From positions 2,494,501 to 2,558,500 of the forward strand of contig NZ_CP046565.1 of NCBI RefSeq assembly GCF_012769535.1: 64,000 nucleotides of DNA. The letters are read 5' to 3'. This stretch comes from Methylococcus geothermalis. GTDB lineage: Bacteria > Pseudomonadota > Gammaproteobacteria > Methylococcales > Methylococcaceae. The translations under genes were made by a program, and so were the position numbers. The notes below the pieces were generated by a model that saw only the letters and a program-made list of their open reading frames with translations, was not told the origin of the DNA and made no database searches. Below, piece after piece: positions 2,671-64,000 of the stretch (position 1 is the stretch's first letter; each line of letters begins with the position of its first letter).

Positions 2671-2711
2671 TACAGCCAACCTCTCGAAATAAAAAACCGT
2701 TAATCAATCTC

Positions 2712-2742: not shown

Positions 2743-2765
2743 ACGACACTGCCGGGTGCGGGCTT

Positions 2766-3539: not shown

Positions 3540-3560
3540 CGATTTCTCCGTAAATGTCTT

Positions 3561-3581
3561 GCCGGGCTGGCAAAGCCCGGC
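3561..3581 (-). promoter_or_regulatory. rpsB leader hairpin (candidate S2 autoregulatory leader)
   Basis: An 8-bp perfect stem (GCCGGGCT/AGCCCGGC, 5-base loop) lies in the rpsB 5' untranslated region, about 20 bases upstream of the ATG. In gammaproteobacteria S2 represses rpsB-tsf through a structured leader at this place. The functional role here is inferred from position. Confidence 0.45.
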
Positions 3582-3687
3582 GGTCGGGTTGCGCCTCCAC
3601 GCACCCCGGCCGGCGACCGCCCTTTCGGGACGGCACCCCACCGGCCGTGACGATGCGTGTGTGGTGTGTTGCCAAATAAAGCTGTGC

Positions 3688-3716
3688 TTTATACCATAGT
3701 GACATTGTTTGAACAA
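3688..3716 (-). promoter_or_regulatory. Promoter for rpsB
   Basis: On the minus strand TTGTTC (complement of 3711-3716) is followed by exactly 17 bases and TATAAA (complement of 3688-3693), a good sigma-70 match. It is about 150 bases upstream of the rpsB start, within the rpsB-map divergent region. Confidence 0.6.
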
Positions 3717-3770
3717 TCAGCTCTCCCGCCCGCCACGGACCGGGAGCCCTCCCGTTTCCGTCGTAATTTC

Positions 3771-4556
3771 ATGAGCATCAGCATCAAGAGCGCCGAGGAA
3801 GTCGAAGGCATGCGCGTGGCCTGCCGCTTGGCCGCCGAAGTCCTGGACATGATCGCGCCCCACGTCAAGGCCGGCATCACCACCGAAGAAATCGACCGGA
3901 TCTGCCACGACTTCATCGTCGACGCGCAGCACGCCATTCCCGCCCCGCTGAATTACAAGGGATTCCCGAAGTCGATCTGCACTTCGGTCAACCATGTGAT
4001 CTGCCACGGTATTCCCGGCCCCAAGAAGCTGAAGAACGGCGACATCGTCAACATCGACATCACGGTCATCAAGGACGGCTTCCACGGGGATACCAGCAAG
4101 ATGTTCCTGGTCGGCCAGGTCAAGCCCTATGCCCGGCAGCTGGTCACAGTCACCCAGGAGGCGATGTATCTGGGCATCCGGGAGGTCAGGCCCGGCGCCG
4201 CCCTCAACCGGATCGGCGCGGCCATCGAACGGCATGCCAGCCAACACAACTATTCCGTGGTCCGGGAGTTCTGCGGCCACGGCATCGGCCGGGAATTCCA
4301 CGAAGAGCCGCAGGTGCTCCACTATTTCGAACCGAAACTGGACATCCGGCTGGAAGCGGGGATGATTTTCACCATCGAGCCGATGATCAACCAGGGCAAG
4401 CGGCACGTGCAGATGCTGTCCGATGGCTGGACCGCTGTCACCAAGGATCACAAGCTCTCGGCGCAATGGGAGCACACCGTGCTGGTGACGCCGACGGGCT
4501 ACGAAGTGCTTACGCTGCGGCAAGAGGAAGATTTTGGGCGAACCGAACTCGGATAA
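3771..4556 (+). CDS. map: Methionine aminopeptidase, type I
   Basis: Removes the initiator methionine from nascent proteins; dinuclear metal enzyme of the pita-bread fold. The start is the ATG at 3771 (MSISIKSAEEVEGMRVACRL), giving 261 residues, typical of type Ia. The metal ligands and surrounding motifs are present: NIDITVIKDGFHGDTSKMF (two Asp), GHGIGREFHEEP (His) with the second His-bearing segment, TIEPMI (Glu) and AQWEHTVLVT (Glu). The first ATG in the frame, at 3657, would lie in the divergent promoter region and is rejected. Its last 23 bases overlap glnD. Confidence 0.96.
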   Translation: MSISIKSAEEVEGMRVACRLAAEVLDMIAPHVKAGITTEEIDRICHDFIVDAQHAIPAPLNYKGFPKSICTSVNHVICHGIPGPKKLKNGDIVNIDITVIKDGFHGDTSKMFLVGQVKPYARQLVTVTQEAMYLGIREVRPGAALNRIGAAIERHASQHNYSVVREFCGHGIGREFHEEPQVLHYFEPKLDIRLEAGMIFTIEPMINQGKRHVQMLSDGWTAVTKDHKLSAQWEHTVLVTPTGYEVLTLRQEEDFGRTELG

Positions 4557-7164: not shown

Positions 7165-7206
7165 CAGCGGCAGTACGCTGCCGGCACCACAAGCAGGAGA
7201 ATCCGC

Positions 7207-7524
7207 ATGACCATCGCAACACCGCTGGTGGACAACTGGTACGAAGAGCGGGAAACCGGCCGGCAATTTAGGATCGTGGCCCTGGACGATGCCGGCGACA
7301 CCATCGAGATCCAGTATCTGGAGGGAGAGCTGAGCGAGTTGGACCGAACTTCTTGGGACCAGGCTTCGATCGTGGAGATCGAAGCCCCGGAAGACTGGAG
7401 CGCGCCTTTCGACGATGTGGAAATAGACGATCTGGGCTACAGCGATCCTGATCTGCACCTGCCCGACACGGACGATCTGACGCTGGACGACGTGCTGGAA
7501 GACGAGGACAAAGAGCCTTACTGA
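7207..7524 (+). CDS. Small acidic conserved protein (DUF6763-like)
   Basis: 105 residues, strongly acidic in the C-terminal third (runs such as DDVLEDEDKEPY). The N-terminus MTIATPLVDNWYEERETGRQF, followed by a short beta-rich segment and a WDQASIVEIEAPEDW motif, resembles small conserved proteins of Methylococcales and Chromatiales often annotated as DUF6763. AGGAGA precedes the ATG by 6 bases. It follows glnD by 42 bases and is probably cotranscribed. The function is unknown; no catalytic motif or membrane segment is visible. Confidence 0.75.
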   Translation: MTIATPLVDNWYEERETGRQFRIVALDDAGDTIEIQYLEGELSELDRTSWDQASIVEIEAPEDWSAPFDDVEIDDLGYSDPDLHLPDTDDLTLDDVLEDEDKEPY

Positions 7525-7531
7525 GGGCGAA

Positions 7532-8632
7532 TTACGCAGGAAACGGGCGATAGCGGTCCAGCAGCCCCAGATCCTCCGCCGCCGCCCTGCAGGTGATGTA
7601 GCCATCGTAGGCGTTCACGGCCTTGGCCAGTCCCGGATCGGCCCGCAGGCAGGCCTCGCCTTCGTTGGCCAGGCGTAGCACATAAGGCAGGGTCGCGTCG
7701 GTCAGCGCCAGGGTCGAAGTGCGCGGATACGCCCCCGGCATGTTGGTCACGCAATAATGGATCACGCCGTGCTCGACGTAGACAGGATGGGAATGCGAGG
7801 TCGGCCTGGACGTCTCCACGCAACCGCCCTGGTCGATGCTGACGTCGACGATCACCGATCCCATCGGCATCGACCTCACCATGGCGTCGGTCACGACGTA
7901 ATCGGCACGAGCGCCCGGCTGCAGCACCGCCCCTACCACCAGATCGGCGTCGCGCACGGTCTCGGCCAGGCGCGCACTGTCCGAGAGGAAGAACGCCAGG
8001 CCCGGAGCGCGCCGGCACAGGGCTTCGCCCTTCGCCGGCACCAGCCCCATGACCTGGACATTGGCGCCCATGCCCCACGCGGTCAGGGCGGCGTGCGAGC
8101 CGACCACGCCGTCGCCGATCACCACGACCTTGCCGTGGCGCACGCCCATGACCTCGCCGAGCTGGACACCTCGGCCGCCGTTGAAGCGCGCCAGATAATA
8201 AGCGCCGACCTGGGCGGCCATGTTGCCCGCCACCGCGCTCATCGGCGCGAGCAGCGGCAGGCGCCCTTGCTCGTCTTCCAGAGTCTCGTAGGCCACCGCC
8301 GTGGTCCCGCGGTCCAGCAATACCCGGGTCAGGCCGGGATCGACGCCGGCCAGGTGGAAGAACGTGAACACCATCTGCCGCTTGAGGTAAGGGTATTCCG
8401 ACGGCACCGGCTCCTTCACCTTGACCACGAGGTCCGCGGCCCAAGCGTCGGCCGCATCGCCGAGCCGCGCTCCCGCTGCCAGATATTCCTCGTCGGCGAA
8501 TCCCGAGCCGACACCGGCCGAGATCTCCACGAGCACTTCGTGCCCGGCCCGCACCAGGGCCGCGACCCCTTGCGGGGTGACGGCGATGCGGTTCTCCAGG
8601 TCCTTGATTTCCTTGGGTACACCGATTTTCAT
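7532..8632 (-). CDS. ald: Alanine dehydrogenase
   Basis: NAD-dependent interconversion of L-alanine with pyruvate and ammonia. 366 residues. N-terminal MKIGVPKEIKDLENRIAVTP contains the substrate-binding Arg, KEPVPSEY and TFFHLAG contain the catalytic Lys and His, and the Rossmann glycine motif is VVIGDGVVGSHAA (about 170-182), with VSIDQGGC and HYCVTNMPGA towards the C-terminus. Note GDGVVG in place of the commoner GGGVVG, a conservative change. The ATG overlaps the stop of the upstream host-attachment gene (ATGA), so the two are translationally coupled. In methanotrophs this enzyme can assimilate ammonia; that role is inferred. Confidence 0.93.
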   Translation of the reverse strand: MKIGVPKEIKDLENRIAVTPQGVAALVRAGHEVLVEISAGVGSGFADEEYLAAGARLGDAADAWAADLVVKVKEPVPSEYPYLKRQMVFTFFHLAGVDPGLTRVLLDRGTTAVAYETLEDEQGRLPLLAPMSAVAGNMAAQVGAYYLARFNGGRGVQLGEVMGVRHGKVVVIGDGVVGSHAALTAWGMGANVQVMGLVPAKGEALCRRAPGLAFFLSDSARLAETVRDADLVVGAVLQPGARADYVVTDAMVRSMPMGSVIVDVSIDQGGCVETSRPTSHSHPVYVEHGVIHYCVTNMPGAYPRTSTLALTDATLPYVLRLANEGEACLRADPGLAKAVNAYDGYITCRAAAEDLGLLDRYRPFPA

Positions 8633-9060
8633 GAGAAAAGGTAACTGCGTATTTCCTGTTCGGTCTTCTGCACCAGGTTCTTGTCCAGGGTCTTGCTGAC
8701 CAGCTTGGCGGTGGGACCGCTCAAAGCCTGGCGCAGCAGACCGAGAAACTCGGGCGCCGCGATCAGGATGAGCGAGAGGCATTCGCCATTGACCCGCGCC
8801 TGTTCGAGGCGTTCGGCCACCCGCTTGGCGAACACCTGGGCCTCGTGCTGCTTGGCATCCTGCGGCTTTTCGTAGTCGTGGCGCCCCTCGGTCGAACTGT
8901 TCAGCATCCGGCCAGGCCGGTCGGAAGTCAGATCCTGCTCTTTGGCTCGACCCTCCACATGCACCAGATCGTCGATTTCCTTGAGCGGATTCTGTCGATT
9001 GTCAATGGCGAAGATTCGCGCCCGGCTGCTCTCTGCGGCAACCACCCATGTCTTGAACAT
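8629..9060 (-). CDS. Host attachment protein family (PF10116-like)
   Basis: 143 residues. The start MFKTWVVAAESSRARIFAID, followed by EGRHDYEKPQDAKQHEAQVFAKRVAERL and LILIAAPEFLGLLRQAL near the C-terminus, matches the family named for an Agrobacterium host-attachment protein. The fold resembles the eRF1 domain 2 / baeRF group, so a ribosome-associated role is possible, but the biochemical function is unknown. GGAGGAAACT precedes the ATG at 9058-9060; the longer in-frame extension upstream is non-coding. The stop overlaps the ald start. Confidence 0.85.
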   Translation of the reverse strand: MFKTWVVAAESSRARIFAIDNRQNPLKEIDDLVHVEGRAKEQDLTSDRPGRMLNSSTEGRHDYEKPQDAKQHEAQVFAKRVAERLEQARVNGECLSLILIAAPEFLGLLRQALSGPTAKLVSKTLDKNLVQKTEQEIRSYLFS

Positions 9061-9185
9061 AGTTTCCTCCCTGTTCCGTTGGTGAATAAAGGGTGCAATT
9101 GCAAACGGATTGTTTCCGGCCATGGCCGGCTCCGCTTGCCTGCATTCTGCCACAAATGAGTCGTGGCGGAGTGCCTGCCGATACG

Positions 9186-10196
9186 CTAAAGCATGGCCGA
9201 TGCAGCGTGCGCCGCCCCCAGCAGGGCCGGTTGGGGATGGACGGCCACCCTCACCCGCAGTCCGCCGAGCAGGGAGGAAAGCCTCCCTTTTGCGGTCAAT
9301 CCGGCCATGAACTTCCCCGACTGCAGGACGGGCAGGATTTTGGGCGCAATGCCCCCGCCGACGATCACGCCGCCGAGCGCAAGCGACTTGAGGGCCAGAT
9401 TCCCGGCCTCCGCCCCGTAGATCGCGGCGAACGAATCGAGCACCGCACAGCAAAGCGCGTCGCGCCGCTTCAGAGCCCATTCGGCGATGATCGGCGCGCG
9501 GTCGGGCGCGCGGGCCAGCGCCGCGTGCAGCGCCTCGCTTTCCGGAGCCACGCCGGCATGGCGAAGATAGTCGTAGAGGTTGGCCAGCCCCGATCCGGAC
9601 AGTATCCGCTCATAGCTGACGTGCCCGCCAAAGCGGTCGCGCAGAAATGCCAGCAGCCCCTCTTCCAGCGGCCCGTTGGGTGCGAAATCGCTATGCCCGC
9701 CCTCGGTCGGCACTGCATGGTAACGCTCGCCGTCCCAGTAAAGGATCGCCTCCCCCAGCCCCGTCCCTGCTGCAATCACTGCGATGTTTCCGGGCTGCTG
9801 ACGGGCGGCCTGGGCGTTCAAGTCGACCCAGTCGCCTTCGCCCAGCCGGTAGGCCATGCCCAGGGCCATGGCCTGGACGTCGTTCAGCAGGCGCACCTCG
9901 CTCACGCCGGTCGCCACCGCCAGCTCCCGCTCGGACAAGACCCACGGCAGATTGGTGATTTCGCAGCGGCCGCCGCTCACGGGGCCTGGAACCCCGAAAC
10001 AGGCGACTTCGGGCTTCCCTCCGTTCTGCCTCTGCAGGAAGTCCGCCACGACCGCCTCCAGCGAGGCGTATTCCGCGCTCGCGAAAATCGCCTCGCTCAG
10101 GCTGACCAGCCTGTCGCCCCAGCAGTCGAACAGCCCCAGGACCGTCTTGGTCGCGCCGATGTCACCCGCCAGCAGCACCTTCTTCGCCCCGCCCAA
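9186..10196 (-). CDS. glk: Glucokinase
   Basis: ATP-dependent phosphorylation of glucose to glucose-6-phosphate. About 336 residues. The ATP-binding phosphate-1 motif LLAGDIGATKTVLGLFD is at about 8-24. The sugar-contact region LLNDVQAMA carries the catalytic Asp, and GTGLGEAI is the phosphate-2 motif. EGGHSDFAP and a C-terminal GGVIVGGGIAPK complete the group II glucokinase pattern. The start is uncertain: TTG at 10196, with GGGGA 9-13 bases upstream, gives the listed frame, and there is no ATG at a better place. It begins within 5 bases of the upstream DUF411 stop. Confidence 0.9.
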   Translation of the reverse strand: MGGAKKVLLAGDIGATKTVLGLFDCWGDRLVSLSEAIFASAEYASLEAVVADFLQRQNGGKPEVACFGVPGPVSGGRCEITNLPWVLSERELAVATGVSEVRLLNDVQAMALGMAYRLGEGDWVDLNAQAARQQPGNIAVIAAGTGLGEAILYWDGERYHAVPTEGGHSDFAPNGPLEEGLLAFLRDRFGGHVSYERILSGSGLANLYDYLRHAGVAPESEALHAALARAPDRAPIIAEWALKRRDALCCAVLDSFAAIYGAEAGNLALKSLALGGVIVGGGIAPKILPVLQSGKFMAGLTAKGRLSSLLGGLRVRVAVHPQPALLGAAHAASAML

Positions 10197-10200
10197 CGGA

Positions 10201-10653
10201 TCAGTCCCCGGCGTAGTCGTGCACGGACTGAACGCTGTCGCCCGGTCCGAAACCGACGACGCTGTAGGCGTCCTTGCGTCCGCCCGTTTCCATCCCCGGC
10301 GTACCGGCCGGCATACCGGGCACGCTCAATCCGAGGAGCGGCGCCTTGGCATCCAGCAGCTTGCGGATATCCGCCGCCGGCACATGGCCCTCAATCCGGT
10401 AGCCGCCGATCACCGCCGTATGGCAGGAGGCCAGGTTCTCCGGCACGCCCAGCTCGCGCTTGACCGCCGCCATGTCGTCCTTGACGATGTCCTTGACGGC
10501 GAAACCGCTCGCCTGGATGTGTTCTACCCACCTCTTGCAACAGCCGCAGGTCGGGCTGCGGTAGACCGTTGCCTCGACCGGCGCCGGCTTTTCCTTGGCG
10601 GACAAAGGATAGGCGACACACAGTGCCAGCCCCCAAAATATCGTTCTGCGCAT
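10201..10653 (-). CDS. DUF411 exported metal-binding-type protein
   Basis: 150 residues with a signal peptide (MRRTIFWGLALCVAYPLSAKEK). The DUF411 core has PTCGCCKRWVEHI (a CxCC cluster), the FAVKDIVKDD strand-helix and SCHTAVIGGYRIEGHVPA with a conserved Cys-His pair. Family members often sit near copper genes and may bind a metal through the CxCC and Cys-His pairs; binding here is inferred. The ATG is at 10651-10653, preceded by GAGGTTCCC. Its stop nearly abuts glk, so the two are likely cotranscribed. Confidence 0.87.
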   Translation of the reverse strand: MRRTIFWGLALCVAYPLSAKEKPAPVEATVYRSPTCGCCKRWVEHIQASGFAVKDIVKDDMAAVKRELGVPENLASCHTAVIGGYRIEGHVPAADIRKLLDAKAPLLGLSVPGMPAGTPGMETGGRKDAYSVVGFGPGDSVQSVHDYAGD

Positions 10654-10679
10654 GGGAACCTCGATGTTTGGTTCATGGA

Positions 10680-11102
10680 TCAGTCGCCGCCGTGCAAGGT
10701 GGCGACGATGGAGCGGGCGCCACCGTGCGTCCGGTGTTCGCCCAGGTAAATTCCCTGCCAGGTCCCCAAGGCCAGCCGGCCCTCCCGCACCGGAACGATC
10801 ACGCTGCTGCCGACCAGAATGGCCTTGATGTGCGCCGGCATGTCGTCGTCCCCTTCCAGGGTATGGCGGTAATACGGCGCACCTTCGGGCACGTGGGCCT
10901 GGAGATGGGATTCGAGATCGCGCCGCACGTCGGCGTCGGCATTCTCGTTGATGGTCAGGGAAGCGGAAGTGTGCTGGATGAAGAAATGGGCGAGGCCCTG
11001 GCGAATCCGCTTGAGTTCGGGCAGGTGCTCCAGGAGTTCCGAGGTGATCAGATGAAATCCCCGTGAGCGAGGCCTGAGAACGATCGTTTTCTGAAACCAC
11101 AT
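10680..11102 (-). CDS. yjbQ: YjbQ family protein (UPF0047)
   Basis: 140 residues. The family core is clear: FHLITSELLEHLPEL, HFFIQHTSASLTINENAD (conserved His-Thr-Ser-Ala and Asn-Glu-Asn), the Asp-rich GDDDMPAHIKAILVGSS and LGTWQGIYLGEHRTHGGARSI at the C-terminus with conserved Trp-Gln and His. E. coli YjbQ has weak thiamin phosphate synthase activity in vitro, but the physiological role is unsettled. The start chosen is the ATG at 11100-11102 (MWFQKTIVLRPR); the upstream in-frame ATG lacks homology. Confidence 0.92.
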   Translation of the reverse strand: MWFQKTIVLRPRSRGFHLITSELLEHLPELKRIRQGLAHFFIQHTSASLTINENADADVRRDLESHLQAHVPEGAPYYRHTLEGDDDMPAHIKAILVGSSVIVPVREGRLALGTWQGIYLGEHRTHGGARSIVATLHGGD

Positions 11103-11231
11103 GAAAGCGCTACCGCCGCCCGGAACGCCGACTAATCTATCACAGGGCGGGCGGAAGTGCCGCAAGGGCGCCACGCGGCCGGGTCGGGCCGGTGGCCCCC
11201 CAAGCTCCGGAGCCGGAAACCGCTGCCAGCC

Positions 11232-11852
11232 TTATCGTTGCAAATCGACGGTCAGCAGCAAACGCCGGGGCATTTGACCCAGTCCACGCGGGAAATCCAA
11301 CACCTGTCTCGCTTTCGGGCTGGTGATGGCGACGGCGTAGGGCGGCACCAGATCGGGGGATGCCGCGACGCGATACATCCCGTCGAAACCGTCCTTCTCC
11401 GCCTCTCCCAGCGCCATATCGAAGCGCCTGGACTTCGGGGCACCTCCGTAAACGCAGGCCAGTTGCAACCCGCCGGTTTCTTCTTCGATCGCGCCGGCAT
11501 CCAGGATGCGGAGGCGCAGGACCGCATATTCGGTCCGGTGCCAATCGCACCAGCGGCAGGTCAGCTGGGTGACGTCCCACACCCACGCCCGGTAGCCGGG
11601 AATATCCTGGGCCCAGGAAAGCAGGGAGCGGAAGTCGAAGTTTTCGAAATCGATGCTGTGCGTCACATCGAGCCGCACCATCTGCCGCAGCACGGTATCG
11701 ACGAAACCGCCCATCACCGCCTCGGGCTCGCGGTGACACACCCGCAGGTCCACGCCAAGCTTGCTCTCGCGAAACAACTCGCCCGGATCTTCGGCTATCG
11801 CCGCCACCAGATCCGTATCACCTTGTGCGATGACTCTCGCCAATGCCGCCAT
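11232..11852 (-). CDS. Protein of unknown function, 206 residues
   Basis: Not recognised. The start is the ATG at 11850-11852 with GGAGG 6 bases upstream. The protein is soluble in appearance, with no signal peptide or membrane segment. An alpha-helical N-terminus (MAALARVIAQGDTDL) is followed by a Trp/Cys-rich middle (YRAWVWDVTQLTCRWCDWHRTEY) and a beta-rich C-terminus ending LLLTVDLQR. The CRWCDW cluster could bind a metal or form a disulfide, but this is speculation. It stands alone on the minus strand between YbaY and YjbQ genes. Confidence 0.7.
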   Translation of the reverse strand: MAALARVIAQGDTDLVAAIAEDPGELFRESKLGVDLRVCHREPEAVMGGFVDTVLRQMVRLDVTHSIDFENFDFRSLLSWAQDIPGYRAWVWDVTQLTCRWCDWHRTEYAVLRLRILDAGAIEEETGGLQLACVYGGAPKSRRFDMALGEAEKDGFDGMYRVAASPDLVPPYAVAITSPKARQVLDFPRGLGQMPRRLLLTVDLQR

Positions 11853-11994
11853 GTCTTGCCTCCACTGAACTGGAACCGCTCGCGCGCGTATCTTTTTCCA
11901 AGCAAGGTTCAATCCAACCCGAAAGCAAGCATAGCCGGCGACTATGACAACAGGTATTCCCTGGCGATGAAACGGCGTGTTTTCGGAACCGCCC

Positions 11995-12411
11995 CTAGGG
12001 GGCCGAAACCCGGTGAAGCTCCAGATCGGCGCGGTCCGGATGGCCGAAGGTCAGCACCGGCACTCCGTGCTTGGATGCGAGTACCGTCTCGCCGTCCTGC
12101 TTGATCACGGCGCTCACCCGGTAATGCCGGTCCTCCGCGACCACCCGCCGGTCGAACGAAATTTCAAAGGGAACCGGCGAGGAGCCGGGCCAGGTATCCT
12201 CCGCCATGCCGACCAGGACCGGCCGGACGTCATGGCGGGTGACGTCTTCCAGCCTGACGACCAGTTCCGCATTCGGATGGAGCTCGACCCGGTCGCGCCA
12301 GCTCACCGTGCCGGTGACCTTGGCGAAATGGGGGTTGGTTTCGTCGCTATGAAACAGGCTGCATGCGGAGAGGAACAGCGGCGCAGCCAATGCGAAAGCC
12401 GGGAATTTCAT
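11995..12411 (-). CDS. YbaY-family lipoprotein
   Basis: 138 residues. Signal peptide with lipobox LSAC (MKFPAFALAAPLFLSAC), so a lipid-anchored envelope protein. The mature part begins with the YbaY pattern VTGTVSWRDRVELHPNAELVVRLEDVTR, then PVPFEISFDRRVVAEDRHYRVSAVI and ends with a beta strand HPDRADLELHRV. Family members are small beta-sandwich lipoproteins of unknown function, sometimes annotated as type III secretion pilotin-like. The ATG at 12409-12411 follows AAGGAGTCCCG. Confidence 0.88.
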   Translation of the reverse strand: MKFPAFALAAPLFLSACSLFHSDETNPHFAKVTGTVSWRDRVELHPNAELVVRLEDVTRHDVRPVLVGMAEDTWPGSSPVPFEISFDRRVVAEDRHYRVSAVIKQDGETVLASKHGVPVLTFGHPDRADLELHRVSAP

Positions 12412-12443
12412 CGGGACTCCTTGAATGGGAAAGAAAAAAGCGA

Positions 12444-13580
12444 TCAGCTGACCTGCCGCGCAACGGTATGCCTGAAGCGGGCCAGAGCCAGCAGAAAAAA
12501 CAGCGCGCCGATGCCGGCCATGATCAGGAATTGCGGCCAGACGGCGGCGAAACCCGCACCGCGGTAAAGCACGGCCTGCGCGATCTTGACATAATGCGTC
12601 GAGGCGAAAAACGCCATCACCCGCTGGATCGGTTCCGGCATGCTGTCCAGAGGAACGGTATTGCCGGACAGCGTGGTGATCGGAAACACCACCAGGATGC
12701 ACAACAGCCCGAGTTGGGGCATCGAACGGGCCACCGTGGCGAGGAAGATGCCGATCGCCGTGGAAGTGAACAGATACAGCGCCGTGGCGGCCAGGAACAA
12801 GGGCAGCGATCCCGCCAGCGGCACGTCGAGCACGCCTTCCACGACCAGGGTCAATGACAGGCCGACCGCGACGACGACCACCAGGCCGTTGGCCCAGATC
12901 TTCGCGCACACGATCTCGAAGGGGCCGAGCGGCAGGGTCAGCAGGTGCTCGACCGTGCCACGCTCCCGCTCCCGCATCAGCGCAGCACCGGAGGTGATGA
13001 TGGAGAGCAGGTTGACCACGTTGATCAGGACCATCACCGAGACGAACCAGCGGTCCTGGGCGTTGGGATTGTACAGAGTGCGTACCGCCAGGCTGACGCC
13101 GGCGTCCGCGGGAGCCACCCCGTTCCTGCCGAAACCGCCGACCTCTTCGCGGATGATCCGTTCGATGTAGCCGGCGCCGATACCAGCCTGGCTCATCGCC
13201 GTAGCATCGACGTTGACCTGGATTTCCGGCTGTCTTCCGGCCAGAAAATCGGCCTGGAAACGGGGGGGGATGTCGATCACGAAGGCGTAGCGTCCGGCAT
13301 CGAGCACGCTGTCCACCTGGTCCATCGGCAGCGGATCGGGCGGGAGGAAATAAGGCTGCGGCAGGGCGGTGACGATCTGCCTGGACAACTCGGAGCGGTC
13401 CTCGTCCACCACCGCCACCGCGCCGTTCCTAAGTTCCAGTAAGCCGCGGCTGGCCGGGATGTAGATCATCACGGTAAATCCATAGACGATCAGAACCAGC
13501 ATGGCCAGGTCGCGGCGGAGGCTCGCCAGCTCCTTCAGCCCCAGCCGAAAGATCGTGCGTAGACGCTTCCCTTTCTTCAT
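12444..13580 (-). CDS. yhhJ: ABC-2 type permease, YhhJ-like
   Basis: About 378 residues. One N-terminal membrane segment (LAMLVLIVYGFTVMIYI, about 24-40), a large periplasmic domain, then the ABC-2 membrane block with RERERGTVEHLLTLPL (the conserved cytoplasmic coupling signature) and five hydrophobic helices. In E. coli yhiI-yhiH(rbbA)-yhhJ encode an adaptor, a double-ATPase fused to a permease, and this permease. The same set occurs here, but yhhJ is separated from the ATPase gene by about 490 bases containing an opposite-strand gene. The GTG one codon upstream is an alternative start. Confidence 0.88.
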   Translation of the reverse strand: MKKGKRLRTIFRLGLKELASLRRDLAMLVLIVYGFTVMIYIPASRGLLELRNGAVAVVDEDRSELSRQIVTALPQPYFLPPDPLPMDQVDSVLDAGRYAFVIDIPPRFQADFLAGRQPEIQVNVDATAMSQAGIGAGYIERIIREEVGGFGRNGVAPADAGVSLAVRTLYNPNAQDRWFVSVMVLINVVNLLSIITSGAALMRERERGTVEHLLTLPLGPFEIVCAKIWANGLVVVVAVGLSLTLVVEGVLDVPLAGSLPLFLAATALYLFTSTAIGIFLATVARSMPQLGLLCILVVFPITTLSGNTVPLDSMPEPIQRVMAFFASTHYVKIAQAVLYRGAGFAAVWPQFLIMAGIGALFFLLALARFRHTVARQVS

Positions 13581-13753
13581 CACGGCATTCCGATCGGAAA
13601 CTCGGCCGGGCGGGGGGAAGCCTCATTCACATAAGGATGGTGTGGTTTTTCCGTCTGGTCCATAATTGACATACGATTGACGCCGTGTTTCCCCTTAGGA
13701 ACACCATGCGGCGCATCGTTCACACATTGACCACAACTATATCAGGAGGACCG

Positions 13754-14026
13754 ATGGACCTTTCCGTTATCGCAATCGCAGTGGGCCTGCTGGCCTATGT
13801 GCTCTATGCCGTCTATTCGTCGCCCGCCGCCGGGAAAGCGGCGGCTTCCTCGCCCACCAGCGCGGCGGAAACCGCCATGCCCGACGAACCTCCGATCCCG
13901 GCACAAGCCGTAGCAGCGCAGGAGGAAATCGCCGCCGCCGAGGAACCGGAACCGGCGGCCGCCGATACCGGTGAAACCGTGATGTCGCTGGAAACGGAAG
14001 CCGCCGCAGAAGCCACAGCGGGCTGA
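13754..14026 (+). CDS. Small Ala/Glu-rich single-pass membrane protein
   Basis: 90 residues with no recognised family. One N-terminal membrane segment (IAIAVGLLAYVLYAVY, about 6-21) is followed by a low-complexity Ala/Glu/Pro tail that lies outside or inside the membrane. AGGAGG is 6 bases before the ATG, which supports translation. It is the only plus-strand gene inside the minus-strand exporter operon and converges on the double-ATPase gene across a hairpin at 14041-14066. The low-complexity tail weakens any homology inference. Confidence 0.6.
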   Translation: MDLSVIAIAVGLLAYVLYAVYSSPAAGKAAASSPTSAAETAMPDEPPIPAQAVAAQEEIAAAEEPEPAAADTGETVMSLETEAAAEATAG

Positions 14027-14070: not shown

Positions 14071-16791
14071 TCAACGTCCCCGGGTGGGAAGCAGCATGAG
14101 GCTGAGCCCCAGATAGCCCAGCACGAAGGCCAGCAGCGCCGCGTGATTGAGGTAGAGTTCGGGGAAGCCCAGAGCCTTGGTGAACACCCCGACGCTGATG
14201 GTCAAGAACCAGGAGGTCGGAAATCCGTAGCCCATCACGGCCGCGGCACCGGTCTGCGAAGCCGCCGGCGCCAGGAATCCGGAAAAATTGATGGCGGGCA
14301 CGATGGACAGCAGGAACGCCGCGAACAGGGCAGCGATCTGCGAGCGCGTGAACGCCGAAATCAACAGTCCCCAGCCGGTGGTCCCGGCAACGGCCAGCAC
14401 GGCCCCCAGCAACAGAGCCCACAGGTCCCCTTTCACCGGCACGCCGAACAGCCACAGCGCCAGCGCAATCAGGGACAGCGCGTTGACCAGCCCGACCACG
14501 ACGTAGGGAAGCTGTTTGCCCAGCAGGAACTCCAGACGGGTCGAAGGCGTGGCATACAGATTGGTGATCGAACCCATCTCTTTTTCCCGAACCACGCTGA
14601 CCGCGGTCAATATCGGCGGGATCACCGCCAGCATCACCGCGATCACGCCCGGCACCAGGGCGTAGACGCTCTTCATATCCGGGTTGTAGCGGAAACGGGT
14701 TTCCACCCGCAACGGCGCGGTCAGACCCCGGGTTCCGCTTTCGTCGATCAAATCGCTGCGGAAACGGGCGTGCACGGCCTCCACATACCCTTGCACCGTG
14801 TTGGCGCGGAACGGGATGCTGCCGTCGATGCGGATGCCCACTTCGGCCCGACGCCCTGCCTTGAGGTCGCGCCCGAACCCCGGGGGAATCTCCACGGCGA
14901 AATTGAGCTGGCCCCGCGCCATTTGCCGCAAAAGGTCCTCGTCGTCGCTCAGCGGCGCCCGTTCCTCGAAATAGCGCGAATGGGCGAAATGCTCCAGATA
15001 GCGCCGGCTTTCCGGCGTCCGGTCGTAGTCGAGGGCGGCGTAAGGCAGATGCTCGACGTCCAGCGAAATCCCGTAGCCCATGACCACCATCAGCAGCATC
15101 GGCCCGATCAGCGCAAATGCCAGGCGGATCGGGTCGCGGACCAGTTCCATGGTCTCGCGCCAGACATAGGCCTTGAAACGGCGGGCGCTGAACCAGGGGC
15201 TGGCGGCGGGCACCGATGCATCGGCGGCCGGGGCGAACGAAGCCGCCCCGGCTTCGACCACCGTGGAAGCGCTCTCGCGCTCCAGGCAGGCGATGAAGGC
15301 GTCCTCCAGCGACGCCACCCCCGCTTCCCTCACCAGATCGGCCGGCGCGCCCTGGGCGAGCACCCGCCCTGCATGCATCAGGGAAATGCGATCGCAGCGC
15401 GCCGCTTCGTTCATGAAATGAGTCGAGATGAAGATGGTCACCCCCTTGTCGCGCGACAGCTCGGCCAGGATTTCCCAGAAACGGTCGCGGGCGACCGGAT
15501 CGACGCCCGAGGTCGGCTCATCCAGGATCAACAGCTCCGGCTCGTGCACCAACGCCACTGCCAGCGACAACCGCTGGCGGATGCCGAGCGGCAGCGACTC
15601 CGCCAAGGCATCCAAATGCGCCGTCAGGTCCATGCGGGACACCAGCGCCCCGATCCTGGCTTCGATCGTGGAAGGCGGTAAACCGAAGATGTGGGCATGC
15701 AGTTCCAGGTTCTGTCTGACCGTCAACTCGGTGTAGAGCGAAAACCCCTGCGACATGAAGCCGATGCGGCGACGCATGGCCGAGTTGCCCGACGCCACCG
15801 GCTGGCCGAATAGCGAGGCCGAGCCGGCGCTGGCCGGTAGGAGCCCGGTGAGCATCTTCATCGTCGTGGTCTTCCCGCAGCCGTTCGAGCCGAGGAAGCC
15901 GAAGATTTCGCCGCGCTCGATCCGGAAGCTCACGCCGTCCACGGCCAGGAAATCGCCGAAGCGACGGGTCAGCCCACTGGCCTCGATCGCCGCCTCGCCG
16001 CGGCCATTCCGGCGCGGCGGGATCGACAGAGCCGCATGTCCCCGCCTCTTGTCCGGCGGCAGCAAGGCGACGTAGGCCGACTCCATGTCGGCTGCTCCGG
16101 TGCGGTCCAGCAGTTCCGCCGCGGTCCCAGTCGCCAGGATACGCCCGGCATCCATGGCGACGAGGCGGTCGAAGCGCGCGGCCTCTTCCATGTAGGCGGT
16201 GGCGACGAGGACGCTCATGCCGGAGCGCTCCTCCCGGAGCATGTCGATCAGCTCCCAGAACTGCCGCCGCGACAACGGATCGACCCCCGTGGTCGGCTCG
16301 TCCAGGATCAACAAGTCCGGCTCGTGCAGCAAGGCGCAGCAGAGACCGAGCTTCTGCTTCATCCCGCCGGAGAGCTTCCCGGCCGGACGGTCGCGGAAGG
16401 GCGCGAGCCCCACCGCCGCCAGCAGGCGCTCGATCCGCCGGCGCCGCTCGTCTGCGCCGAATCCGAACAGCCGGCCGAAAAACTCCGCGTTCTCCCACAC
16501 CGAAAGCGTCGCGTACAGGTTGTGCCCCAGGCCCTGCGGCATGTAGGCGATGCGGTAGCACAAGCGCCGGTGAGCCTTCGGATCGGCGATGTCCTCGCCG
16601 AACACCTCGATACGCCCCGCTTGGACTTCTCGGACTCCCGCGATCAGGCCCAGCAGGGTCGACTTCCCCACCCCGTCCGGACCGACGAAGCCGATCAGCC
16701 TGCCGGCAGGTAATGCCAGCGAGATACCGGCCAGCGCTTCGACCCTGCCATAGCGGTGGCGGCACGCCTCGACCCGGACGACGGCGCTCAT
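14071..16791 (-). CDS. rbbA: Double ABC ATPase fused to ABC-2 permease (RbbA/YhiH type)
   Basis: 906 residues, like E. coli RbbA (911). First ATPase domain: Walker A GPDGVGKST (about 36-44), signature LSGGMKQKL, Walker B LLILDEPTTGVDP. Second ATPase domain: Walker A GSNGCGKTT (about 300), Q-loop, signature-like SLPLGIRQRLSLA (the normal LSGG is degenerate) and Walker B LLILDEPTSGVDP. The C-terminal third is an ABC-2 permease with a large loop and five helices (VREKEMGSITNLYATP coupling segment). The ATG at 16789-16791 overlaps the YhiI stop (ATGA). It probably exports an amphiphilic substrate with YhiI and YhhJ; E. coli RbbA has also been called a ribosome-associated ATPase. Confidence 0.9.
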   Translation of the reverse strand: MSAVVRVEACRHRYGRVEALAGISLALPAGRLIGFVGPDGVGKSTLLGLIAGVREVQAGRIEVFGEDIADPKAHRRLCYRIAYMPQGLGHNLYATLSVWENAEFFGRLFGFGADERRRRIERLLAAVGLAPFRDRPAGKLSGGMKQKLGLCCALLHEPDLLILDEPTTGVDPLSRRQFWELIDMLREERSGMSVLVATAYMEEAARFDRLVAMDAGRILATGTAAELLDRTGAADMESAYVALLPPDKRRGHAALSIPPRRNGRGEAAIEASGLTRRFGDFLAVDGVSFRIERGEIFGFLGSNGCGKTTTMKMLTGLLPASAGSASLFGQPVASGNSAMRRRIGFMSQGFSLYTELTVRQNLELHAHIFGLPPSTIEARIGALVSRMDLTAHLDALAESLPLGIRQRLSLAVALVHEPELLILDEPTSGVDPVARDRFWEILAELSRDKGVTIFISTHFMNEAARCDRISLMHAGRVLAQGAPADLVREAGVASLEDAFIACLERESASTVVEAGAASFAPAADASVPAASPWFSARRFKAYVWRETMELVRDPIRLAFALIGPMLLMVVMGYGISLDVEHLPYAALDYDRTPESRRYLEHFAHSRYFEERAPLSDDEDLLRQMARGQLNFAVEIPPGFGRDLKAGRRAEVGIRIDGSIPFRANTVQGYVEAVHARFRSDLIDESGTRGLTAPLRVETRFRYNPDMKSVYALVPGVIAVMLAVIPPILTAVSVVREKEMGSITNLYATPSTRLEFLLGKQLPYVVVGLVNALSLIALALWLFGVPVKGDLWALLLGAVLAVAGTTGWGLLISAFTRSQIAALFAAFLLSIVPAINFSGFLAPAASQTGAAAVMGYGFPTSWFLTISVGVFTKALGFPELYLNHAALLAFVLGYLGLSLMLLPTRGR

Positions 16792-58771: not shown

Positions 58772-59812
58772 AGAGTTGCTTCCGATGATAAAAATGGATT
58801 TATTGTGGTATAAATATACCCATTAACAACAATCGAATGGTGTCAGTCAGTGATTTTTGAAAAGTTCATGGAAGAAACCAGCGAACGTACTGTCAGAGCC
58901 CTGATCGGAATGAACAAGGCTCAATTCGCCAAGCTCTACCCTATCTTTGAAGAGGCCTATGCGGAGATTCAGCAAGAACGTGTTAGGCAAGGCGAAATAA
59001 AACGGGTACAAAAAGGAGGTCATGTTGGCTATCTCGATCGGATGGATAAGAAGCTGTTCTTCATTTTGTATTACCTCAAGACCTACTGTACCTTCGATGT
59101 CCTGGGCTTTCATTTTGGCTTGAGTTCGGGGCATGCGCATCGACATGTGGAACAACTTCTGCCCGTGTTGCGGCGCAGCTTGGCGAAGCTCGATCTGCTG
59201 CCAGAGCGGGCGCTGACGACACCGGGAGAGATGATGAAACTGATTGAAAAACATGGCGATCTCATCATTGACGGAGTGGAATGCGGTTGCGTCAGGCCGC
59301 AGGATGACGATCAGCAAAAAGCCCGCTATAGCGGCAAAAAAAACGACATACGGTTAAAACCTTAGTCATTTCGACCCTTGAGCGGCAAATTCTATTCGTT
59401 GGAGGTATGGTGGCCGGCAGCGTTCATGATGATGCGCTGATGAAGCAACTGTTCGATCCTGCATTATCGTGGTTTGATGGCGCCGATGTCTGGTTGGATT
59501 TGGGGTTCTTTGGTGCCGCTGCCGATGATGGGAATAAAGCCAGAATTCACCTTCCTCACAAGAAACCCAGGACATCCAAGAACAATCCTCATGCCGCGTT
59601 GACAGTTCAACCAATACGAGAGAATAAAAAGCAAGCACGAACCCGAATCTCAGTCGAGCACTCCATTGGAGGAATGAAGACCTTTCACTGCTTGATGCAT
59701 CGGATTAGAAACCGACTCAACATATTCATCGATGGGTTTTTCGGCCTTGCCGCTGGCCTTTGGAATCTAAAAATGTCTTTGTGATCATATGGTTATCATT
59801 GGAAGCAACCCT
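58772..59812 (+). mobile_element. Insertion sequence, IS5 family, ISL2 group
   Basis: 1041 bp. Terminal inverted repeats AGAGTTGCTTCCGATGATAA (58772-58791) and its complement at 59793-59812 (18 of 20 match). Target duplication ATT (58769-58771 and 59813-59815), which fits the ANT duplication known for ISL2-group elements. It carries a DDE-superfamily transposase in two frames. It has cut the membrane-protein gene on its left. Confidence 0.88.
58850..59784 (+). CDS. IS5/ISL2 transposase, two frames joined by -1 shift at A8
   Basis: The first frame (GTG 58850 to 59365; alternative ATG 58868) carries the N-terminal helix-turn-helix region LFFILYYLKTYCTFDVLGFHFGLSSGHAHRHVE and the first catalytic Asp in LIIDGVECG. 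The second frame carries GSVHDDALMKQLFD, VWLDLGFFG (second Asp), HLPHKKPRTSKN and VEHSIGGMKTF (Glu), ending FGLAAGLWNLKMSL. At eight A (59336-59343) a -1 shift rejoins them as SGKKKRHTVKTLVIST. A run of eight A is a classic slippage site, so the full enzyme may be made by frameshifting; decay is the alternative. Confidence 0.8.
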
Positions 59813-59883
59813 ATTGAGAAGGGCATAGAATTATGCTAGTGTAGCGTCCCCTGACATAAATTTATAAATGTTATCATTGGCTG

Positions 59884-60967
59884 ATGCGAAAGCCGATGAC
59901 GATTGAACTGAGAGAGGGTGACCTTGCGATACTCACGCGTTGGGTAAAGAGTCGGGCGGTGGGCGATAAACCAACCTTACGGGCGCGTATCGTTCTGATG
60001 ACGGCGGAGGGTTGTTCGACCCAGGAGATCATGGAGACGCTCAAGGTGAGCAATCCGACGCTGAATCTCTGGCGCCGGCGCTATCTGGAGTGCGGCATCG
60101 AGGGCTTGAAGAATGGGAAGACGCGCCCGTCGCGGGTGCCGCCTTTGCCGGTGGAAAAAGTCCAGGAAGTGCTGACCCTGACGCTGAGTGGAAAGCCAGC
60201 GGCAGCTACGCACTGGAGTTGCCGAACCTTGGCCGAGCAGGTGGGCATTTCGCGCATGGCGGTGCATCGCATCTGGCGGGAGCATCGGTTGAAGCCACAC
60301 CGCGTCAAGGGTTTCAAGGTGTCGAACGATCCGCAATTTGAGGAGAAGCTGCGGGATGTCGTGGGACTGTATCTCGATCCACCGGAGAAGGCCATCGTGT
60401 TTTCCGTCGATGAGAAAAGCCAGATCCAGGCACTGGATCGCACGCAACCGGGCTTACCGATGAAGCCGGGCAAGAACGGCACCATGACGCACGACGATAA
60501 GCGCCACGGCACCACGACCTTGTTCGCGGCCCTCAATGTCCACGCGGGGACCGTCATCGGCGAATGCCTGCCCAAGCACCGCAACGATGAGTTTCTCAAA
60601 TTTCTGAAGAAGCTCGATAAACTTACGGACAAGGCTTTGGGGGGTGCATGTGATCGTCGACAACTATGCCACGCATAAGCATCCCAACGTGAAAGATTGG
60701 CTGGGCAAGCATCCACGTTTTCATCTGCACTTTACGCCGACGTCAGCATCCTGGGTGAATCTGGTGGAGCGTTTCTTCCGCGACATCACCGAGGAACGCA
60801 TCCGTCGTGGCGTCTTTCGTAGCGTTGAGGAACTGAAGACGGCCATCATGGAGTACCTGGAGCACCACCATGCCAATCCAAAGCCGTACCACTGGACTGC
60901 CAAGCCCGACGCGATTTTGGCAAAAGTCGCCAAAGCTAAGGAACCTCTGAACAAACCCTGCGGGTAA
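59884..60967 (+). pseudogene. IS630 transposase, frameshifted and 3' interrupted
   Basis: First frame (59884-60678): helix-turn-helix region EIMETLKVSNPTLNLWRRRY, AEQVGISRMAVHRIWREH, first catalytic Asp in IVFSVDEKSQIQALDRTQP. Second frame to 60967: second Asp in HVIVDNYATHKHP and Glu in SASWVNLVERFF. Six G at 60639-60644 hold one extra base relative to an unbroken ALGVHVIVDNYA. The last codons are replaced by IS5 sequence; joining across its target duplication restores KAKVTLGTLH and a TAG at the IS end. Confidence 0.85.
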
Positions 60968-62111
60968 GCTATTCCTGCCCAGAACCCCTGAACGCGGAGC
61001 CCCGATGAAACAGACCACCTTCGCCTCCTTAGCCTTTGACCGGAAGAAGAAGCAGACCCGGCGTGAGAAGTTCCTGGCCGAGATGGAGCAGGCGGTGCCG
61101 TGGCCGGAGTTGCTGGCGGTGATCGAACCGCATTACCCGAAAGCGGGTCGGCGCGGTCGTCAACCGTACCCGTTGGCGACGATGCTCAGGCTTTACTTCC
61201 TCCAGCAATGGTATGCCTTGTCCGACCCGGGCCTGGAAGATGCCCTGTACGAGATCGAATCGATGCGGCGCTTTGCGGGTCTGGAGTTGGCCGATGACGC
61301 GCTGCCGGATGAAACCACGATCCTCAACTTCCGGCGCCTGCTGGAACGTCACGAGCTGACGGCGAAGTTGATGAACGCCATCAATGACGTGTTGGAAGCG
61401 CGAGGGTTGCTGCTCAAGGGGGGGGCACGATGGTGGATGCGACGATTATCCACGCCGCGCCATCGACGAAGAACAAAGCCAAGACCCGCGACCCCGAGAT
61501 GCACCAGACCAAGAAGGGCCATCAGTGGTTCTTCGGCATGAAGGTGCACGTGGGAGCGGACGTTCACACCGGCGTCGCCCACACGGTCTCGGTGACACCG
61601 GCCCATGCCGCCGACATCAGCCAGTTGCCGAACCTGCTGCGCGAGGACGACCGGCTGATCCTCGGCGATGCCGGCTACGTCAACGACACCTATAAGCGCG
61701 CTGCGCGGCAGGCCGGGGTCGTGTGGGGCGTCGCCTTGAAAGCCCGTCCGAAACGGCGCTTGGGGGCTGCGCAGAAACGCCGCAATCGGCGAATGTCGTC
61801 GATCCGCAGCCGAGTCGAGCACCTTTTTCGGGTGATGAAGCGGCAGTTCGGCTACACCAAGACGCGCTACCGGGGTCTGGCTAAGAACGCCGCCCAGGTG
61901 TTGACCCTGATAGGGTTGACCCATCTTTACCTAAAGATGCGCGCATTGATGACCTGAGGGGCGAGGTGCGCCCGGCATCCGCCCCGACGGGCGCATCCGG
62001 GGGGGATCGCCACGGTAAGTAAGGAATTTCGGTACCCTTCACCCATTTTCAAAGCCTGATTATCAGCGGGATGTGTTTTTACCGGCCAAATCGGGTTTGT
62101 TCAGAGGTTCC
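60940..62111 (+). mobile_element. IS5-family (IS5 group) element nested in IS630
   Basis: 1172 bp. Identical 19-base inverted ends GGAACCTCTGAACAAACCC (60940-60958; complement 62093-62111). Target duplication CTAA (60936-60939 and 62112-62115), which fits the YTAR target of the IS5 group. Downstream of the transposase (61958-62092) there is no gene. Confidence 0.9.
61005..61957 (+). CDS. IS5-group transposase, two frames joined by -1 shift at G8
   Basis: First frame (61005-61541): MKQTTFASLAFDRKKKQTRR, the IS5 N-terminal domain QPYPLATMLRLYFLQQWYALSDP, and DDALPDETTILNFRRLLE. Second frame (to 61957): first Asp in MVDATIIHAAPSTKNK, KVHVGADVHTGVAHTV, second Asp in LILGDAGYV and Glu in IRSRVEHLFRVMKRQFG. 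The frames are joined by a -1 shift at a run of eight G (61418-61425), giving LLLKGGTMVDATII. The product could come from slippage, or the element is inactive. Confidence 0.8.
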
Positions 62112-62137: not shown

Positions 62138-62257
62138 TAGACTTAATATAGTATTAATTCTAATTTTTTCGGATACGTCGTGGGGGATGTGAAACGGAGC
62201 GAGACCCTTAATTTGTGAGTTTTCTTAAGTAGTATGAAAGCCTTCTGGAGCCCTTCT
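62138..62257. other. AT-rich leader upstream of the terminal gene
   Basis: Non-coding. AT-rich directly after the IS630 end (ACTTAATATAGTATTAATTC), so a promoter could lie within 62140-62180, possibly aided by the IS. GGAG at 62247-62250 serves as ribosome-binding site for the ATG at 62258. Confidence 0.35.
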
Positions 62258-64000
62258 ATGGAAAAAGTCATTGCAATCACTCCTCCTCACTGTACCCGCC
62301 CCGAAATGGTGATCGCGGCATGCAGAGCCGGGGGCATAGGGGTGGTGGATCTAGGCTACCGCGACATATTCGATTGGTCGGTCGCTAATTTAGGCCGTAT
62401 TGAATCCAGCGTCGATCGCACCTCGCTTTGGGGTGTCCGCTGGGATACCTTGGGTTTGCCGCAGCGCAGTCCGGAACTATTACTCAAATTATTTCGCCGT
62501 TCTCGTCCTGTTCCGATTCTCGTGTTGGCGGGCCAGCAACCCGCTGAATTCCCCCGTTTCCGCGAGCTAACGCGACGGATCGCTCGACAAGCATTCGTCG
62601 AGGTTCATGATTTGGAGTCTGCCCGAAGCGCCATTGCCGCCGGATACGACGGTCTGATCGTCAAGGGACACGAGGCGGGCGGCTTGGTGAGCAAGCACTC
62701 GACCTTCATCCTGCTCCAAGAACTCCATGGCAAACTGAACGCTCCCTATTGGGTACAGGGAGGGATCGGCCCGCGCAGCGCCGCCGCGGCGATCTTAGCC
62801 GGAGCAAGAGGCGTGGTATTGTGCGAACAACTCTGGCTTGCCGACGAAAGTCCTTTCTCCCGCACCGATATGCGCAATGCCTGGAGTCGGCTCGACGGAA
62901 GTGAAACCATCCTGCTTGGACCCGATGATGTTCCCTATCGCCTGTTCAGCCGCTGGGGCCGAGGCAAACTTCGCGAACTGGAGCAACGGATTCTGCACGG
63001 CGAGCCGTGGCGAGAACGGTTGTCCCAATACCTGGGCGAGGCGGACGATCCGCTATTGCCGTTAGGCCAAGATATTACCTTTGCCGCCCCATTGGCAAAA
63101 CGTTACGGCACGGTCGGCCGCATCGTCACGGCGATCCGCAACGACATGGAGTCGACCGTGCGACTTGCCCGCTCTCAGAGGGTTTTTTCTCCGGAAAGCC
63201 CATTGGCGCGTAGCCACGGCACCCGGTATCCGATCGTGCAGGGTCCCATGACACGGGTCAGCGACACGGCCGCTTTCGCCAAGGCGGTGGCCGATGGCGG
63301 GGCGCTGCCCTTTCTCGCGCTGTCCGTGATGCGCAAGCCGCAAGTCCGGGAACTGCTGACGGAGACCCGATCCTTGTTGGGGGAGCAACCTTGGGGCGTG
63401 GGATTGCTGGGCTTCATGCCGCTCGAGTTTCGCCAAGAGCAAATCGAGGTGATTCGAGAGATCAAGCCGCCCTTCGCCATCATCGCCGGCGGTCGACCCA
63501 GCCAAGCCCGTGAGCTGGAAGAACTGTCGATCGCCACCTATCTGCACGTGCCGTCCCCGGGGCTCTTGCATGGATTCCTCAAGGAAGGCGCACGGAAGTT
63601 CATTTTCGAAGGCAGTGAATGCGGCGGGCACACGGGGCCACGGACCAGTTTCATCCTGTGGGAGTCTGCCATCGAGATCCTGCTGACAGCCGAGATCCCG
63701 GATGCCGAATCGGTCCATGTCTTATTCGCCGGAGGCATTCATGACGCGGTATCGACCGCCATGCTTTCGGTTCTCGCCGCCCCGCTCGTTGCCCGAGGCA
63801 TGAAAGTGGGGATATTGATGGGCACCGCGTATCTCTTCACCGAAGAGATCGTGCGCACCGGAGCAATCGTCGAGGAATTTCAGGCGCATGCCGTTACTTG
63901 CAAGGAAACGGTTTTGCTGCAATCGGGCGTGGGAGTCTACACCCGTTGCGCCAAAACGGATTTCTGCGATGAGTTCAATCGCAAACGACGCGAGCTGTTG
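62258..64000 (+). CDS. N-terminal part of a large enzyme with tandem nitronate-monooxygenase-like barrels (PKS/PUFA-synthase-like)
   Basis: Open to the window end, 581 codons. The ATG at 62258 has GGAG 7 bases upstream; an in-frame ATG at 62234 has none. Two FMN-type TIM barrels follow in tandem. Barrel 1 (about 1-290) has YDGLIVKGHEAGG near 130, PYWVQGGIGPRSAAAAILAGARGVV and a degenerate active site. Barrel 2 (from about 320) begins RYPIVQGPMTRVSDTAAFA and has KFIFEGSECGGHTGPRTSF with the conserved His, then VLFAGGIHDAVSTAML. Such barrels, as in PfaD, serve as enoyl reductases of polyunsaturated fatty acid or polyketide synthases; some giant type I synthases begin with them. The downstream domains are outside the window. 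Confidence 0.7.
   Translation, partial: MEKVIAITPPHCTRPEMVIAACRAGGIGVVDLGYRDIFDWSVANLGRIESSVDRTSLWGVRWDTLGLPQRSPELLLKLFRRSRPVPILVLAGQQPAEFPRFRELTRRIARQAFVEVHDLESARSAIAAGYDGLIVKGHEAGGLVSKHSTFILLQELHGKLNAPYWVQGGIGPRSAAAAILAGARGVVLCEQLWLADESPFSRTDMRNAWSRLDGSETILLGPDDVPYRLFSRWGRGKLRELEQRILHGEPWRERLSQYLGEADDPLLPLGQDITFAAPLAKRYGTVGRIVTAIRNDMESTVRLARSQRVFSPESPLARSHGTRYPIVQGPMTRVSDTAAFAKAVADGGALPFLALSVMRKPQVRELLTETRSLLGEQPWGVGLLGFMPLEFRQEQIEVIREIKPPFAIIAGGRPSQARELEELSIATYLHVPSPGLLHGFLKEGARKFIFEGSECGGHTGPRTSFILWESAIEILLTAEIPDAESVHVLFAGGIHDAVSTAMLSVLAAPLVARGMKVGILMGTAYLFTEEIVRTGAIVEEFQAHAVTCKETVLLQSGVGVYTRCAKTDFCDEFNRKRRELL

Follow-up and report, generated by a model that had tools for sequence, protein, structure and literature searches.

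The 5' end of a probable arsA gene, with one His-less and one His-bearing reductase-like barrel in tandem, in a probable methanotroph genome

The window analysed here is a stretch of 64,000 nt (bases 2494501-2558500 of a single-contig 3.37 Mb genome), and the gene which begins near its right end is very likely the start of arsA, the gene for the type I fatty-acid synthase of a phenolic-lipid (alkylresorcinol) operon. Of the two barrels at the N-terminus of its product, the second would be the sole reductase and the first its partner. The ArsA system is already known, and the window adds a new host branch. A prediction made from the window alone had described a giant multidomain enzyme with a frame open to the window end. 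This was borne out, since the frame is open from its first ATG at 62234 and stops after 2,524 codons counted from there. According to frame reading and orthologue identity, the 5' part of the arsA orthologue occupies 62258..64000 on the plus strand, and the stop codon lies beyond the window at the window-equivalent position 69808 (L002:8808; window coordinates correspond to those of the locus record L002 plus 61000).

The start at 62258 appears better supported than that at 62234, since a GGAG (62247..62250, plus strand; a likely ribosome-binding site) precedes this ATG by 7 bases and Met is found there in all 14 aligned proteins. In the alignment of 14 rows M1 never varies, and each of the 13 orthologues has its Met precisely there; for nine of them the frame has no earlier start codon, for the other four it has one. 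The good start noted in the original prediction thus corresponds to 62258.

Instead of a stop soon after position 64000 with no synthase domains, we found that the same frame goes on into further domains. In the Pfam analysis their order is NMO, ketoacyl synthase (KS) with its C-terminal parts, acyl transferase (AT), one phosphopantetheine site (ACP) and KR, so that the ArsA orthologue has the layout barrel-barrel-KS-AT-ACP-KR (ER*-ER-KS-AT-ACP-KR). This rules out a stand-alone double oxidoreductase and supports the earlier suggestion that a secondary-lipid or polyketide locus begins here. The synthase domains looked for to the right of the window were present in frame with the exception of the dehydratase, which lies outside the arsA frame and is encoded by the third gene of the operon (Pfam). 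The KS, AT, ACP and KR motifs, which we take to have their usual functional meaning, are aligned and intact in all 14 ars-type proteins; in two methanotroph MAGs the KS motif reads DAACAAS, with the Cys kept.

The assignment to ArsA relies on full-length similarity. By BLAST, the protein is 57.2% identical over 2,549 columns to a protein of the A. vinelandii locus L008, which we infer from species, neighbours and size to be A. vinelandii ArsA. Identity to 12 of the 13 orthologues is 57-70% over 2,501-2,565 columns, and the A. chroococcum orthologue is 63% identical along the initial 1,648 columns; the ten from outside Azotobacter (relatives and the two methanotroph MAGs) are 60-70% identical. 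The same nine Pfam families, with a single ACP, occur in the same order in the A. vinelandii protein. It shares with the protein described here the length, the N-terminal barrel pair and the adjoining genes for a type III PKS and a DH/PPTase protein. In the arsABCD operon ArsA is the fatty-acid synthase according to PMC4824345; it passes the acyl chain from its ACP to ArsB and ArsC (PMC6274091) and was filed under Type P secondary lipid synthases by Shulse and Allen 2011 (PMC3098273). The double barrel, which had been presented as an oddity, is therefore typical of a known family.

The best NCBIfam model for the protein is that of the PUFA synthase subunit PfaA (omega_3_PfaA, TIGR02813), with 1084.7 bits and thus above the cut-off of 1010.1. 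This match would fit a locus for polyunsaturated fatty acids, and the KS-AT-ACP-KR order is indeed shared with PfaA, as is the TIM-barrel enoyl reductase with PfaD. However, the arsA product contains one PP-binding stretch (Pfam) and lacks the tandem ACPs of the PfaA type, its reductase is fused in cis and doubled, its neighbours are genes for a type III PKS, a DH/PPTase protein and transport-like proteins, and the protein is orthologous to ArsA. We consider it extremely improbable that the gene encodes PfaA.

Barrel 1 comprises residues 1-310 from the 62258 start (62258..63187, plus strand) and barrel 2 residues 311-620 (63188..64000, plus strand, and about 117 bases past the window). Searched alone, each half passes the cut-off of 28 bits of the Pfam NMO family (PF03060), with 35.4 bits for barrel 1 and 64.8 bits for barrel 2. 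The NCBIfam model FabK (TIGR03151) gave 35.6 bits (E 5.9e-9) and 71.6 bits (E 6.6e-20), respectively, and neither value reaches its curated cut-off of 453.1 bits. At E up to 1 FabK was the sole NCBIfam model returned for either barrel, but a PfaD model is possibly absent from NCBIfam. Hence the comparison with PfaD and nitronate monooxygenases, which had been proposed as a check, placed both barrels with FabK/NMO models and did not establish a PfaD identity.

In agreement with the original prediction, barrel 2 is intact. It carries motif III as ECGGHTGPR (63617..63643, plus strand), with the catalytic His as residue 458 (63629-63631), and motif I as QGPMTRVSD (63239..63265, plus strand), the place of the FMN-contacting Met according to the motif description in PMC13311796. 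In barrel 1 the aligned motif III, as defined in the same source, reads EAGGL (62672..62686, plus strand), Leu replacing the catalytic His at residue 143, and no Met is visible at the ITP stretch which was taken as its motif I. To this extent the first barrel is degenerate, as claimed earlier; it is nevertheless a complete barrel which scores over the Pfam NMO cut-off.

An AlphaFold2 model of residues 1-620 (14 sequences; mean pLDDT 69.4, pTM 0.70, pLDDT below 50 at the motif III loops of both barrels) contains eight barrel strands in a row in each half. The best fold match of its first half (VIA-align) was the nitronate monooxygenase 3bw3 (Z 23.5, rmsd 3.5, 264 residues), followed by FabK 2z6j (Z 22.2), the MlnA reductase domain 4z38 (Z 22.2) and PfaD 6lkc (Z 21.2). 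Since barrel 1 aligns with all these structures, it is, as modelled, a whole barrel of the NMO/FabK/PfaD fold. The fold comparison covered barrel 1 and hardly barrel 2, whose assignment relies on sequence profile and strand count. With FabK and the nitronate monooxygenases the pair thus shares the fold (as compared for barrel 1), the profile match of both barrels and motif III in barrel 2, and it differs from them by scores far under the FabK cut-off and by its fusion into a type I synthase. In PfaD an N-terminal subdomain of about 80 residues precedes the barrel (PMC13311796). In contrast, the first modelled strand of barrel 1 is already at residues 5-7, so that such a PfaD-type subdomain is absent before it.

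To describe the pair across homologues, we assembled 27 proteins: 14 of the ars type (the one starting in the window, five from named records and eight from related genomes) and 13 wider homologues, which were identified by their barrels and came from a class survey (six) and a phylum survey (seven). In two of the wider homologues the synthase parts are covered incompletely by the sequence (G662 is a frame of 571 residues and G148 runs into N). The class survey, with barrel 1 alone as the query, covered 369 genomes and gave matches with E no higher than 1e-10 in 16 of them; eight of the frames were long, two of them ars-type, and entered the pair set, while the other eight (308-411 residues) were single-barrel proteins. 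In the phylum survey a match was found in 10 of 398 genomes, each spanning both barrels, with at most three candidates scored per genome, so single-barrel synthases may have been missed. Since every phylum-survey match spans both barrels, the two seem to move together as a unit. Two such barrels in tandem had been regarded as unusual, but among the homologues found they are the rule. As a side observation, in two small genomes (L037 and L040) the single-barrel NMO-like protein reads EGGGF where the His motif would be.

The catalytic-His place of barrel 1 is occupied by W (10 proteins), S (6), L, F and R (3 each), E (1) and A (1) and in none of the 27 by His. In barrel 2 the His of motif III is kept in 27/27; barrel 2 was located by a pattern that includes this His, and no row of the 27 was lost thereby. 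Motif I of barrel 2 is QGPMTRVSD in 24 of the proteins, QGPMSRVSD in two and QGAMTRVSD in one. Among the eight single-barrel NMO-like proteins of the class survey six keep the His and two do not, so the loss of this residue alone is no proof that all activity is gone.

Both barrels are under purifying selection. For barrel 1, dN/dS is 0.07-0.19 in all seven pairs (the dN/dS table has 21 rows, one of which, for the KS of the two MAGs, was left out), and these values, together with many invariant residues, rule out a decaying remnant. A recent duplication of one barrel was also considered, but is unsupported, since the mean identity between barrel 1 and barrel 2 is 18%, as against 22% and 24% to the one stand-alone NMO in the alignment (14 of the 27 proteins). 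According to hhalign the two are homologous (probability 87%, E 3.8e-6). The barrel tree was built from 14 of the 27 proteins and one of the eight stand-alone NMO-like proteins, and no rooting was drawn from it.

The purifying selection on barrel 1 would also be expected if both barrels were catalytic, barrel 1 using another residue (H138 or H147 of KGHExGGxVSxH) to reduce enoyls of other length or geometry, or working as an oxidase. In the 14 ars-type proteins neither H138 nor H147 varies, nine of the 13 wider homologues have H at the H138 place, and a flavin-phosphate-like GGIG stretch is present in most barrel 1s. However, the H138 place is S, Q, Q or Y in the remaining four, the H147 place is never H in the 13, and the catalytic His as well as a visible Met at the presumed motif I are missing from barrel 1. 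Moreover, barrel 1 is the faster-varying of the two, with a mean identity among homologues of 32% vs 58% for barrel 2 (14 of the 27 proteins). Two catalytic barrels are therefore unlikely in our judgement.

We favour the reading that barrel 2 is an FMN enoyl reductase, in all likelihood the only one of the synthase, and that barrel 1 is probably a conserved pseudo-reductase which serves as the dimer partner of barrel 2 in cis. TIM-barrel enoyl reductases need dimerisation, and the thraustochytrid ERb and ERc form a heterodimer (PMC13311796); the need for a second barrel is what suggests a cis partner. A FabK-like interface between the barrels is assumed here, for barrels which are on average only 18% identical (14 of the 27 proteins). 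The thraustochytrid PUFA synthase (PDB 9SDD) likewise has two TIM-barrel reductases, whose pairing is demonstrated in PMC13311796, but there they are separate proteins, 75-80% identical and both with the His, while here they are in tandem, 18% identical and one of them is without it. The earlier proposal was that the first barrel may have ceased to be catalytic and turned into a structural partner. Its first part is in line with the absence of His in 27/27 and the selection data, and the partner role is our interpretation. We found no description of a His-less first barrel in open-licence papers, and its conservation across the family is in this respect new: this barrel stands out as a candidate pseudo-enzyme within a megasynthase.

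Between them, ArsA and the DH/PPTase protein contain all activities required to assemble, on one ACP, a long saturated acyl chain out of malonyl units. The AT would load malonyl onto the single ACP, the KS would condense, the KR would reduce and the DH of the second protein would dehydrate. Barrel 2 would then reduce the enoyl with FMN, the flavin being reduced by NAD(P)H and passing a hydride to the enoyl chain with His458 as acid/base, and barrel 1 would act as a pseudo-reductase and cis dimer partner of barrel 2. Finally, the ArsB-type type III PKS would accept the ACP-bound chain, carry out three extensions with malonyl-CoA and cyclise the product to a 5-alkylresorcinol.

The genes behind arsA fit this scheme. 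In L002, arsA (1258-8808, plus strand; frame and Pfam) is followed by the genes for the type III PKS (8875-10098; Pfam), the DH plus PPTase protein (10023-11924; Pfam), an ATPase with the best score for LolD (11842-12726; NCBIfam), a permease with the best score for LolC/E (12723-13973; NCBIfam), a LolA_like protein of 247 residues, 246 of which were searched (from 13986; Pfam PF17131), and orf415 (14726-15973, window-equivalent 75726-76973), which encodes 415 residues with no Pfam family over the cut-off. The starts of the third and fourth frames were set mechanically and overlap the preceding gene, so that the true starts may be further in. The downstream order matches that of arsABCD, save that A. 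vinelandii has two type III PKSs, ArsB and ArsC, and this locus has one of the ArsB type.

The residue at the place of ArsB Trp281 decides between resorcinol and pyrone (PMC6274091). It is Trp in all nine single-copy type III PKSs and in the three Azotobacter first copies, and Gly in the three Azotobacter second copies, and because of this Trp alkylresorcinol is the predicted product of the operon. Two of the three ars-bearing genomes of the genus (G002, locus L021; G003, locus L020) lack a type III PKS, and there the DH/PPTase frame follows about 70 bases after arsA, while the synthase and the export-like genes, including orf415, are kept. No close type III PKS was found elsewhere in these two genomes; a 26% match in G002 was rejected as such, since its frame, judged by eye, is a 390-residue ketosynthase-like protein. 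Thus, the chains made by the synthase may not in every case go to a resorcinol synthase. One could go further and assume that the phenolic lipid is no longer made in the genus, that the synthase makes another long-chain lipid, and that the type III PKS behind the window is a leftover or a late re-acquisition. However, the latter is full length, has the GCYGA, HPGG and Trp281 stretches and is 61-78% identical to those of the other loci, and we regard such a loss as quite unlikely. The preferred product of the locus remains an alkylresorcinol.

The export-like genes resemble the LolCDE-LolA system in their best scores and in the adjoining LolA_like protein, which passes its Pfam cut-off (PF17131, 130.3 bits vs 30). 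They differ from it in that the ATPase (TIGR02211, 241.8 bits vs 307.75) and the permease (TIGR02212, 89.9 bits vs 362.45) are below the curated cut-offs, in their MacB/FtsX resemblance, in the single permease gene and in their location beside lipid-synthesis genes, with no lipoprotein substrate implied. We therefore do not class the transporter as LolCDE, although its mode of action may be similar. The ATPase matched 191 NCBIfam families; LolD was top, and among the best 25 of the 191 none was over its cut-off. The permease also matched MacB and FtsX families, and the two proteins may instead form an exporter of the MacB type with a different substrate.

The ATPase, the permease, the LolA-like gene and orf415 or part of it lie downstream of the synthase genes in all ten loci which cover that stretch (that of the window, A. 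vinelandii L050 and L020-L027; in L022, L023, L024 and L026 the locus ends within orf415). A permease is at the matching place in A. chroococcum and the two MAGs as well. None of the four genes was found in four wider double-barrel loci (L044-L047), in which about 1 to 9 kb downstream was searched. Three of these other double-barrel loci (L045, L046 and L047) adjoin stretches 30-41% similar to the DH/PPTase protein. The orf415 family is conserved behind ars, has a signal-peptide-like start and a C-terminal Phe and belongs to no Pfam family; its structure model (mean pLDDT 42.9) contains many long strands, which only suggests an outer-membrane barrel protein. Table 3 of PMC10651043 lists the A. 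vinelandii protein Avin_29510, named "ABC-type antimicrobial peptide transport system, ATPase component", next to arsC, arsB and arsA. According to this table it was, like the Ars proteins, undetected in an algU mutant kept under encystment conditions. From name and tag, we identify it with the ATPase in L050.

Based on these observations, it is tempting to view the ars operon as a make-and-export unit, a reading which we offer tentatively and rate at somewhat below even. An ABC transporter resembling LolD/LolC-E, a periplasmic carrier resembling LolA and possibly an outer-membrane barrel protein would lift the phenolic lipid or its acyl precursor from the inner membrane to the outer membrane and the cyst coat. 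Function and substrate of the set are deduced from similarity and gene order. Such a Lol-like path for a non-protein lipid would be common to Azotobacter and cyst-forming methanotrophs and able to outlast the loss of the head-group enzyme. In open-licence papers we found neither a report of Lol-like genes beside ars, which are new in this sense, nor an explanation of how Azotobacter phenolic lipids reach the outer cyst layers. The conserved neighbour set offers named candidate genes for phenolic-lipid transport to the cyst.

The host is very probably a methane-oxidising gammaproteobacterium. This is based on the named Methylobacter and Methylococcales records and on PF02461, which presumably covers a methane monooxygenase subunit: the genome of the window has two PF02461 genes and none of 14 control genomes has a match. 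Among eight genomes examined, no PF02461 match was found in G004, of the same genus, or in G009. The full barrel pair was present in 9 of 61 genomes in our first survey, namely in 9 of 37 in the family of the window's host and in none of 24 outside it (the count omits two weak matches, one of them partial in G048 and the other an additional one in G007). Within the genus three of six genomes have it, and it was not found in the complete genomes G004 and G005.

The role of phenolic lipids in Azotobacter cysts is known from the literature. Desiccation-resistant cysts of the Azotobacter type are described for Methylococcaceae and Methylothermaceae (PMC6315193); three other strains of the family showed no cysts (PMC5023254). 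We found no report of alkylresorcinol in methanotrophs in open-licence papers, and for Methylococcus capsulatus Bath one PKS gene, MCA1238, is mentioned (PMC517821). The presence of ars in 9/37 genomes of the family thus points to a possible chemical basis of methanotroph cysts.

The setting differs from that of A. vinelandii arsABCD in the probably methanotroph host and also in a run of transposases directly upstream. At positions 58850-61957 of the window three transposase units lie in a row, ending about 300 bases before the start of arsA. Each of them is split over at least two frames, and their families are HTH_Tnp_4 in one unit, HTH_23/HTH_32 in another, and DUF772 plus DDE_Tnp_1 in the third.
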